From a virus: 22,481 bases of DNA. The notes below the pieces were generated by a model. The model was not told where the DNA came from and did no database searches. It saw only the letters and a program-made list of their open reading frames with translations. Where the stretch lies: IMG/VR virus record IMGVR_UViG_3300042914_001256, positions 1 through 22,481 of that record. One strand, 5' to 3'. This document shows, one piece after another, positions 2,772 through 12,370 of this stretch; position 1 is the first letter of the stretch, and every line of letters starts with the position of its first letter. The translations under genes and the position numbers were made by a program.

Positions 2772-3173
2772 TTATTCTGTGCTTGGCTCTGGGCGGTTGT
2801 AAGCCAACAGCGCAGGAATCCGCTCAGCAGCGATCATCCCAGCGGCGGCCAGTGCCTGTAGGCCGGACTCCAGTCGGGGATCGTCAAGAGCCACCGTGGG
2901 AGCGCTTATGAACTCATCCACCAGGGCAGCCACCTGTGGGGACTGCCCGGCAGCGGCGAGGATCGTCACGTATTCAGCGGCAGTCAATCGGTGGATGAAT
3001 GCAGAGCTGGTGATCAACCCAATGCGGTTCAAGTCGGCATAGATGCGGCCTTGGTGTTTCAGGAACTCCAGCGCAAGCTGCTCGGGCGTGGCGCCGTTGC
3101 GGTTGGCGGCTTCCACCCAGCCGTCGATCAGGCGGGTGTCAGTGATGGTGATAGTGAGAGAGAAAAGAGGCAT
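2772..3173 (-). CDS. Hypothetical structural-region protein, 133 aa
   Basis: I do not recognise this family with certainty. It starts MPLFSLTITITDTRLIDGWV, a beta strand followed by a helical protein (about residues 15-125) with many Ala and Leu, including a pattern of helices RTAAEYVTILAAAG-like at residues 60-80. The sequence has no Cys and no membrane segment. It lies 14 nt downstream of the fibre-like gene and 34 nt upstream of the truncated tail terminator remnant, so it is in the same operon. A gene of this size behind a fibre gene may be a fibre chaperone or a small attachment protein, but that is only inferred from position. Confidence 0.6.
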   Translation of the reverse strand: MPLFSLTITITDTRLIDGWVEAANRNGATPEQLALEFLKHQGRIYADLNRIGLITSSAFIHRLTAAEYVTILAAAGQSPQVAALVDEFISAPTVALDDPRLESGLQALAAAGMIAAERIPALLAYNRPEPSTE

Positions 3174-10812: not shown

Positions 10813-10834
10813 AAAAGGCGGGTTGCCCCGCCTT
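10813..10834 (-). terminator. Intrinsic terminator ending the pentamer array
   Basis: A perfect 8-bp stem, AAGGCGGG (10834-10827) with CCCGCCTT (10822-10815), is closed by a GCAA tetraloop and followed by a further TT (four T in all). This is a good rho-independent terminator on the minus strand, directly after the last hairpin of the array. It implies that the array is transcribed in the same direction as the gene before it and has a defined 3' end. Confidence 0.85.
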
Positions 10835-10838
10835 ACCT

Positions 10839-10855
10839 GGCCGCCGGAAGCGGCC
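10839..10855 (-). other. Terminal hairpin of the array
   Basis: A perfect 6-bp stem, GGCCGC (10855-10850) with GCGGCC (10844-10839), encloses the loop TTCCG. It follows the last pentamer of tract 3 and precedes the terminator by 4 nt. It may protect the 3' side of the RNA or act as the third, shortened version of the hairpin modules, since its loop also contains TCCG. Confidence 0.7.
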
Positions 10856-10929
10856 CTCGCCTTGCCCCGCCAGTCCCTACCCCGCCATGCCTGGCCTAGC
10901 ATCGCCTAGCCGCGCCCCAGGGTGCCGCG
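10855..10929 (-). repeat. Pentamer tract 3 (15 units, YNNGG)
   Basis: Fifteen consecutive 5-nt units from 10929 down to 10855 with consensus YNNGG. Thirteen of the fifteen end in GG and fourteen begin with a pyrimidine (the exception is ACTGG). Examples are CTAGG, CCAGG, CATGG, CGGGG. The two middle positions vary freely. The period of five is not a multiple of three, so this is not a coding repeat. The tract begins one base after module 2 and runs into the terminal hairpin. Confidence 0.85.
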
Positions 10930-10990
10930 TCTGCCCTCAAAAGAGAGCAGCAGGGAGCCTCCGCAGAAGCTCCGTGCTGCTGTCTGCAGC
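10930..10990 (-). ncRNA. Array hairpin module 2 (61 nt)
   Basis: A structured spacer between tracts 2 and 3. The central hairpin has an outer 7-bp stem AGCAGCA (10981-10975) with TGCTGCT (10952-10946), a C-C mismatch, an inner 8-bp stem (one G-U) of GGAGCTTC with GAGGCTCC, and a TGCG loop closed by C-G, which fits the stable C(UNCG)G class. The flanks (GCTGC at 10990-10986 and GGGCAG at 10936-10931) can pair with the same strands, so alternative folds exist. A TTTT loop can form between CTGCTCTC and GAGGGCAG. Confidence 0.72.
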
Positions 10991-11060
10991 CCTTGCCAGG
11001 CCCGGCCATGCCTCGCATGGGCTCGCCCCGCCACGACGTACCGCGCTGCGCCTGGCCTTG
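10991..11060 (-). repeat. Pentamer tract 2 (14 units, YNNGG)
   Basis: Fourteen consecutive 5-nt units from 11060 to 10991. All fourteen begin with a pyrimidine (thirteen C, one T) and ten end in GG. First and last units are both CAAGG. Deviating units such as CGCAG, CGAGC and CCATG keep the phase without insertion or deletion, so the spacing itself is under constraint. Both flanking modules have lengths of 5n+1. Confidence 0.85.
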
Positions 11061-11116
11061 TCCACCCCTTGTGAGGGTGGCAGGGAGGCCGGAGCCTCCG
11101 TGCCACCGTCTGTGGT
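11061..11116 (-). ncRNA. Array hairpin module 1 (56 nt)
   Basis: A structured spacer between tracts 1 and 2. The central hairpin has an outer 7-bp stem GGTGGCA (11107-11101) with TGCCACC (11082-11076), a C-C mismatch at 11100/11083, an inner perfect 6-bp stem GGAGGC with GCCTCC, and a TCCG loop closed by C-G, again a C(UNCG)G tetraloop. Flanking CCAC (11115-11112) and GTGG (11065-11062) are complementary to the outer arms. The layout and the bases AGAC, CACGGAG and CTCCCTG are shared with module 2, while the stem sequences differ. Confidence 0.72.
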
Positions 11117-11221
11117 CCTTGCCAAATCCCGCCGGGCCATGCCTTGCCCCACCCCACCGCACCCTACTGCGCCGTAGCGTGCCGAACCTGGCCCTGACCT
11201 GCGTGACCGGGCCATGCTGGG
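11117..11221 (-). repeat. Pentamer tract 1 (21 units, YNNGG)
   Basis: Twenty-one consecutive 5-nt units from 11221 to 11117. Every one starts with a pyrimidine and fifteen end in GG, among them CATGG, CCCGG, TTCGG, TAGGG. The tract begins 26 nt after the stop codon of the RAMP-like gene (11248) and ends with CAAGG next to module 1. At the GC content of this region only about one unit in nine would end in GG by chance. Confidence 0.85.
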
Positions 11222-11247
11222 ACTTACACCAGAGGATGCCCAGCGCA

Positions 11248-11880
11248 TCAGGCCACCTCCGCCAGCAGTCGATCCAGTTGCTCGGCGACAGGAACCACCT
11301 CGGCGTCGAAGCGGCCATGCTTAGGCCGCCAATCGCCAATCCCCACCAGCTTGCCGGCGTCGATGGCGATCTCTTCAACGTCCCGCATGTTGAGCACGTC
11401 GGGGTCGTACTGAGCCAGCGCAGTGATACTCCAGTTGCGGAACACGGGGCGGGTGCGCATCACCTTGGCCATGCCCACCTTGACGCCGATCGTGTGGGTG
11501 AAGTCACCACTGGCGAACATCTCCGAAAGCGTCTCGTCGGTGATGGTGTCGGGCTTGCCGTCAAACTGCAGAGAGGCGTGCTCAGTGAAAAACAGGCCGC
11601 ACTTCGCTTGGGGGCCGCGCTTGGACTTTTTAGCGCCGCTGATCATGGCGCTCTCAATCACGTAGTCGGGGATCACCAGATCGCCGTCGATGCGGTACAA
11701 GCCAGCCAGCCATTCAAGGCGGGCCATTTCATCGTAATCAGCGTCGGTCTTTTTGCGCTTGCTGCTGACTGCTTTCATCGCCTTCGCGTAGGTATTTCGC
11801 GGATCGGCGGTCTGCCCGTTGTGGCACAACAGTGGGCTCACGCCCTGCAATCGAATCTGAACAGAAGGAAGGCTGGACAT
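11248..11880 (-). CDS. Phage protein with suspected RAMP/Cas7-like pattern
   Basis: A 210-residue protein. I chose ATG 11880 because GGAG lies about 7 nt upstream (CACGGAGACAAA before ATG) and because the longer frame to 12000 overlaps the HNH coding region with meaningless sequence. Visible blocks: a first strand QIRLQGVSPLLCHNG (8-22), a helical insertion with DPRNTYAKAMKAV and KRKKTDADYDEMARLEWL (26-58), VIPDYVIESAMISGAKKSKRG (69-89), VGMAKVMRTRPVFRNWS (135-151), then a beta-alpha-beta unit ALAQYDPDVLNMRDVEEIAI ending in the Gly-rich LVGIGDWRPKHGRF (178-191). The strand, P-L, late ferredoxin-like unit and Gly/basic loop recall Cas7/RAMP RNA-binding proteins. That is inference from pattern, not a proven homology. 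I recall related proteins in other phages without a known role. The array follows 26 nt after the stop, so the mRNA would contain both. Confidence 0.72.
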   Translation of the reverse strand: MSSLPSVQIRLQGVSPLLCHNGQTADPRNTYAKAMKAVSSKRKKTDADYDEMARLEWLAGLYRIDGDLVIPDYVIESAMISGAKKSKRGPQAKCGLFFTEHASLQFDGKPDTITDETLSEMFASGDFTHTIGVKVGMAKVMRTRPVFRNWSITALAQYDPDVLNMRDVEEIAIDAGKLVGIGDWRPKHGRFDAEVVPVAEQLDRLLAEVA

Positions 11881-12235
11881 TTTGTCTCCGTGAAGTTGCT
11901 GGAACAGAAAGTGAAGGCGGAGCGATGTGAACCGGATCGACTTGCTTTTTGGGGTCCAGCTTGAATCGTTGGCGCCGAACAGAGTTAGTAATGCCGTCAT
12001 GGCATTCAGAGCACAGCGTCAGAAGATCTGACATTTGCTCGTTACCAAATGACGGGTACGAAAAGTTCGGTGGGCCAGCGTTCTTGTGATGAACCTGAAG
12101 CACAGGCCAGCCCAGCTCAGCCAACTGCGCAGCAGTGATGCCGCACCCTTGGCACTGGTGGCCGTCGATCTCAAGGCGTTGCTGTCTGCGCTGCCGCCAC
12201 TGGCGAGACAGGTAGTAGCCGCTAGGTGTGTTCAA
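11738..12235 (-). CDS. HNH endonuclease domain protein
   Basis: About 165 residues from the possible TTG start at 12235. The HNH/zinc pattern is clear: C28-x2-C31 (CQGC), the catalytic-type LQVHHKN (H49, H50), an Asn-containing FGNEQMSD segment, and LLTLCSECHD (C75, C78, H79). HNH proteins nick or cut DNA; in many phages one lies beside the terminase and takes part in cos packaging, and others are mobile nucleases. The start is uncertain: the frame is open up to a GTG at 12328, but two strong hairpins at 12273-12312 suggest that this part is untranslated leader. The C-terminal 47 codons overlap the next gene in another frame, which is unusually long; a shorter original C-terminus changed by frameshift is possible. 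It is the first gene of the minus-strand side of the cassette. Confidence 0.75.
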   Translation of the reverse strand: MNTPSGYYLSRQWRQRRQQRLEIDGHQCQGCGITAAQLAELGWPVLQVHHKNAGPPNFSYPSFGNEQMSDLLTLCSECHDGITNSVRRQRFKLDPKKQVDPVHIAPPSLSVPATSRRQNVQPSFCSDSIAGREPTVVPQRADRRSAKYLREGDESSQQQAQKDRR

Positions 12236-12272
12236 GCATGATGGATCCAACCTTTCGGCTGGGCGATCGTGG

Positions 12273-12312
12273 CTGGCCAAAGGCCAGGGGCATGCCGGGG
12301 TACCAGCCCGGC
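12273..12312 (-). other. Two tandem hairpins in the leader of the HNH gene
   Basis: CTGGCC AAA GGCCAG (12273-12287) is a perfect 6-bp hairpin, and GCCGGG with CCCGGC (12294-12312) is a second one with a 7-nt loop. Neither is followed by a T-run on either strand, so they are not typical terminators. They lie between the divergent ribbon-helix-helix gene and the HNH gene and may control expression. Confidence 0.5.
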
Positions 12313-12370
12313 TTGCTCCGCCCACCACTTCGGCCGGAGCGCCAGCCGCCGCTAAGCTGCTGACTGTTGA

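Follow-up and report, generated by a model that had tools for sequence, protein, structure and literature searches.

Organisation of the locus

The window, i.e. the whole 22.5-kb virus record analysed here (IMG/VR, IMGVR_UViG_3300042914_001256), has no recognised ends. On its minus strand, a terminase gene, an HNH-domain ORF (11738..12328; PHROG HNH families, best E = 3e − 10) and a gene for a 210-aa protein (11248..11880; phrog_4652, function unknown, E = 6e − 49) precede a repeat array of the same orientation, with the 3′ part of the HNH ORF overlapping the start of the 210-aa protein gene (vipr, see below). Directly after the vipr stop codon lies a 5′ leader hairpin (CTGGGCATCC-TCT-GGTGTAAGTCCCAG, 11217..11243), a conserved feature which is located at or near the stop in nearly all relatives and often has a GNRA-type loop. 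Three tracts of YNNGG pentamers, delimited by unit scanning, then alternate with tails supported by covariation across 78 homologous tails: 20 units (putative guide tract of vrRNA1, 11117..11216); the vrRNA1 tail with the start of the next vrRNA (11061..11116, comprising segments A0 and A, a central hairpin, and segments B and C); 14 units (vrRNA2, 10991..11060); the vrRNA2 tail, again with the start of the next vrRNA (10930..10990); and 15 units (vrRNA3, 10855..10929). Two hairpins visible in the sequence follow on the same strand, one closing the last vrRNA (GCCGC-TTCCG-GCGGC, 10840..10854) and one resembling an intrinsic terminator (AAGGCGGGGCAACCCGCCTTTT, 10813..10834), after which come head-tail, portal, and capsid genes. 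Rfam returned no match in the window at the gathering threshold, and chance matches only at a loose threshold.

A non-coding array in strict 5-nt register

The array occupies positions 11216-10855 of the minus strand in strict 5-nt register. A reading made from the sequence alone had counted 50 units in tracts of 21, 14, and 15; the three tracts and the lengths of the last two stand, while the first has 20 units and the total is 49, because the supposed 50th unit (CCCAG) is the end of the leader hairpin. A terminal GG is found in 38/49 units, and all but one (48/49) begin with a pyrimidine. The period-5 autocorrelation suggested in the sequence-only reading gave values of 0.42 at lag 5, 0.45 at lag 10, and 0.40 at lag 15 (minus strand, 10855-11221), as opposed to 0.25–0.30 at all remaining lags to 14. 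GG pairs at a 5-nt spacing numbered 32, far above the 13.7 ± 3.3 (maximum 26) seen in 5000 dinucleotide shuffles. A pattern of six units requiring a GG at each 5-nt step had six exact matches, all within the array, where 0.02 were expected, and a unit scanner run over both strands of the entire window detected only these three tracts, the intervening stretches being structured tails and not part of the array. A coding repeat is excluded by the period of 5 together with the gapless fit to YNNGG. The earlier view that the array is non-coding, and that its phase is kept and not merely its composition, is upheld.

Across 225 tracts of the family, position 1 of the unit was C or T in 93% of cases, position 4 was G in 91%, and position 5 was G in 84%, with positions 2 and 3 being nearly uniform.

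The 210-aa protein is a Vipr homologue

VIPR was described in a 2026 preprint and proposed to predate CRISPR (PMC13142463). It combines a RAMP protein, Vipr, with vrRNAs, each made of 9–16 YNNGG repeats and a structured tail, whose NN bases read double-stranded DNA with one base skipped; for the SUSP1 system, ribonucleoprotein formation, DNA binding, and repression were reported (PMC13142463). Known carriers include Escherichia phage SUSP1 and a P. fulva prophage, and seven types have been published (PMC13142463). The statement in the sequence-only reading that no described repeat class has this form no longer holds, as exactly such YNNGG tandem repeats, next to a RAMP protein, are the subject of this preprint.

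The 210-aa protein shares 32% identity with the SUSP1 Vipr homologue (E = 5e − 27), and its family profile matches PDB entry 36pp, 'SUSP1 Vipr protein' (E = 2e − 40). Its AlphaFold2 model (pLDDT 87) matched Csm3, Cmr4, and Cas7-11 along most of the chain; a Pfam search of the protein gave no match at all. Homology and predicted fold identify it as Vipr, the RAMP of the SUSP1 family. At 20 units, vrRNA1 exceeds the 9–16 repeats given in the preprint.

An IMG/VR scan with the 210-aa protein yielded 80 relatives (81 loci with the window). The sequence-only reading had proposed searching beside homologues of this protein, and had held that absence of tracts from close relatives keeping the flanking genes would speak against the array; at least one tract lies within 1.5 kb of vipr in 80 of these 81 loci. 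Period 5 was the strongest short period downstream of vipr in nearly all 80 IMG/VR loci, and the relatives repeat the same architecture: a leader hairpin at the stop codon, a guide tract, a tail, another guide tract, and another tail. Tracts were likewise seen beside much more divergent homologues, found in phages of Mycobacterium, Gordonia, and Pseudomonas, on a Bradyrhizobium plasmid, and in several genome bins. The same scanner applied to the SUSP1 locus found four tracts, one upstream and three downstream, in agreement with PMC13142463. The array is real, non-coding, and ancient within its family.

Only six distant vipr homologues were found in sequenced genomes, and a distant scan with the Vipr of locus L136 revealed no further viral relatives. 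When the array was searched against phages with blastn, matches fell mainly on a piece of Mycobacterium phage Brocalys and its relatives, which proved to be another YNNGG tract. In Brocalys (locus L086, 2158-2290), as well as in related mycobacteriophages, tracts directly precede gp45, whose product distantly resembles Vipr (26% identity, E = 0.02). The conjugative Bradyrhizobium plasmid pBb1S5b (L089, 2531-3152) carries a vipr homologue followed by one 17-unit tract. One guide tract (L017, 5886-6015) contains an exact 45-nt tandem duplication of nine units, a hint as to how guides lengthen. In an Omnitrophota bin (L139, 186-240), a type-P5 twister ribozyme is found ~1 kb upstream of a vipr homologue.

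In each of the 80 clade loci that extend at least 600 nt upstream of vipr, and in 4/5 genome-bin loci, an HNH homologue directly precedes vipr; none was found in SUSP1 or in the other phage and plasmid relatives tested. Published VIPR accessory genes comprise vap1-6, and nucleases are named as accessory in types III–V (PMC13142463); the HNH gene may be an accessory gene of this VIPR type.

Tails with two alternative folds

In the 78 tails compared, four short segments, A0, A, B, and C, flank the central hairpin. Pairing of A0 with A together with B with C was possible in 95% of cells, and the alternative pairing of A with B in 97%; in both folds, compensatory changes greatly exceeded those in shuffled and slid controls. 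As the two arrangements are mutually exclusive, the tail is probably two-state, and cleavage between B and C as the RNA matures would offer a simple explanation for the two folds.

Hammerhead ribozymes between vrRNAs have been reported for some VIPR types (PMC13142463). We reject a hammerhead reading of the present tails: Rfam detected none in 17 related loci, and the CTGATGA motif that some tails contain belongs to the A0:A hairpin. In Mycobacterium phage LittleE (L087, 2230-2440 and 3700-3900), each YNNGG tract is followed by a minihelix resembling a tRNA acceptor and T-arm, itself preceded by a short hairpin, and a similar minihelix follows a tract in Gordonia phage MakoManhole (L088, ~2976-3030); GTCCGGG..GGCGGTTCGAGTCCGCCGCCCGGA is an example from these loci. 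ARAGORN called none of these minihelices a tRNA, nor did Rfam in the case of LittleE; they may let RNase P or RNase Z mature the vrRNAs.

Some guides match other phages' genes at a 1-nt skip

Guides of the clade were reduced to their NN dinucleotides and threaded through the fetched contigs, in which tracts were masked, with 0–3 bases skipped between pairs. With one base skipped, 19 of 140 non-redundant guides scored ≥34, compared with a mean of 0.2 guides in unit-order shuffles; skips of 0, 2, and 3 gave none. The matches fall, in either orientation, in sister-phage genes for terminase, portal, and head proteins (the target terminase and portal were identified by eye from translated sequences), and the skipped base lies mostly at codon position 3, in agreement with what PMC13142463 reports for other phages. 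GGY forms the framework of the unit; DNA is read by the NN pairs in the pattern NNxNNx. The statement in the sequence-only reading that the variable bases carry information is borne out. A target was detectable for a minority of clade guides, the collection searched being small, and the 1-nt-skip reading holds statistically for the clade and, within the window, for vrRNA3 only. These results lend independent support, from natural sequences alone, to an unusual code, and name natural targets: the packaging and head genes of close kin.

The vrRNA3 dinucleotides (GC AC GG GC TA GA TA CA AT GG AG CT GG AA GA) match the head-tail gene of a close sister group, whose Vipr is 97% identical, at 22/30 read bases, including eight consecutive complete units. 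This score was equalled in 1/400 unit shuffles. The phage's own head-tail copy matches at 19/30 read bases; at the same site it reads TCT TTG, against AGC CTC in the sister, so that residues are identical and read bases changed. Among whole contigs of 35 relatives, allowing ≤3 mismatches, vrRNA3 alone had matches, and vrRNA1 and vrRNA2 had no convincing target in the contigs searched. No sequence in IMG/VR fitted nine units of vrRNA3 exactly. Exact IMG/VR scans with guide parts gave no match for vrRNA3, five for vrRNA2, and two for vrRNA1, with none spanning a whole guide; the latter seven are few enough for chance, show no tie to related genes, and were discarded.

Interpretation and alternative explanations

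We consider it very likely that the array is a phage VIPR system with three guide RNAs. Fitting this less well are the lack of a convincing target for vrRNA1 and vrRNA2, the 22/30 read bases of vrRNA3, the 11/49 units that lack GG, the length of vrRNA1, and the minority of clade guides with a target in the small collection searched. The present data establish anatomy, homology, fold, 1-nt-skip match statistics, and the target genes; expression, processing, and targeting in the window's phage, along with any part played by the HNH gene, are inferred. Downstream of vipr, the transcript would be cut into three vrRNAs, each consisting of a YNNGG guide tract and a structured tail. Vipr, a Cas7-like RAMP, would cover the tract at one subunit per unit of 5 nt, gripping GGY and exposing NN, and successive NN pairs would base-pair with double-stranded DNA, one target base being skipped per unit. 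Because the base passed over is the wobble base of the codon, most synonymous changes would give no escape. Once bound, the complex would block the target gene, here most likely a terminase, portal, or head gene of a competing sister phage. Among the options listed in the sequence-only reading, that of a protein-coating platform with a 5-nt footprint comes close to this mechanism.

How a phage might spare its own copies was assessed at Ser, Leu, and Arg codons conserved in the target site. These were class-switched in the own copy in 20/36 cases, versus 90/482 in the own flanks (p = 3e − 6, Fisher test) and 228/877 at the same sites in third-party homologues (p = 2e − 4). Self-avoidance by codon class switching is suggestive only, since the sample consisted of top-scoring guides that are not all independent, targets were picked as best matches, and own copies rank as average among homologues (mean 0.52). 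Tentatively, and with somewhat less than even confidence, we propose an HNH-linked VIPR clade engaged in sister-phage conflict over shared late genes, where guides would follow rival terminase, portal, and head alleles, own alleles would escape through Ser/Leu/Arg switches that alter read positions, and the two-state tail would govern vrRNA maturation. The clade opens a direct test of self-sparing in a phage that competes with close kin.

That the guides instead regulate the phage's own late genes, as a self-targeting timing control, is unlikely. The targets are late structural genes adjoining the locus, own copies often match in part (as does vrRNA3), and their average rank would fit such a role. 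However, of the 29 top cases in which the phage has a homologous site of its own, 28 had their best match in another contig, the own site being poorer, and the excess of class switches at own sites over third parties also speaks against self-targeting.

Slightly less probable still is a decayed array, in which vipr remains intact while the window's guides no longer match anything. The two guides with no detected target and the 11/49 units lacking GG could be read in this way, but Vipr is both intact and highly conserved, the leader and tails are well formed, and the collection searched is small relative to what the phage meets in nature. A DNA-level element with no guide role, be it a signal for packaging or recombination or a G-quadruplex tract (the sequence-only reading had listed packaging and two-tetrad G-quadruplexes), is very improbable in spite of the GG-rich composition and the position between terminase and portal genes, given that relatives elsewhere carry the array far from packaging genes, that the clade's arrays always lie on the coding strand directly after vipr, and that such elements predict neither NN matches to other phages' genes at skip 1 only nor tails with compensatory changes of paired RNA.

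Comparison with known systems

TIGR-Tas is likewise a tandem array of guides, encoded by phages and used in RNA-guided targeting of DNA, with an effector that is reported to carry a Nop domain (PMC12045711). The window's effector is a RAMP in which no Nop domain was found, and we reject a TIGR-Tas assignment given the RAMP fold and lack of any Pfam match. Similarity to the backbone of Class 1 CRISPR-Cas (Csm3, Cmr4, Cas7) extends to the RAMP fold and to a multimer assembled on guide RNA with periodically disrupted pairing, an arrangement that the window's Vipr would share. Unlike these systems, the window has a period of 5 in the guide itself, a single small protein, no spacer-repeat array, and no cas operon; CRISPR-Cas was rejected on the grounds of the pentamer array, of neighbours that are phage structural genes and an HNH gene, and of the failure of PADLOC to match the RAMP.

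The VIPR systems of SUSP1 and the P. fulva prophage share with the window a homologous Vipr, tandem YNNGG tracts, a structured tail after each tract, and 1-nt-skip matches to other phages with the skip at the wobble position. Relative to these systems, the window's clade is set apart by a tail that differs from that of SUSP1 in sequence and structure and has two exclusive covarying folds, by the leader hairpin that starts the array, by the HNH gene before vipr, by having no gene between vipr and the array, and by its targets, the packaging and head genes of sister phages. The locus belongs to a kind already described (VIPR, PMC13142463), to which the fixed upstream HNH gene, the leader hairpin, the two-fold covarying tail, and hints of self-avoidance add features beyond the main text of the preprint.
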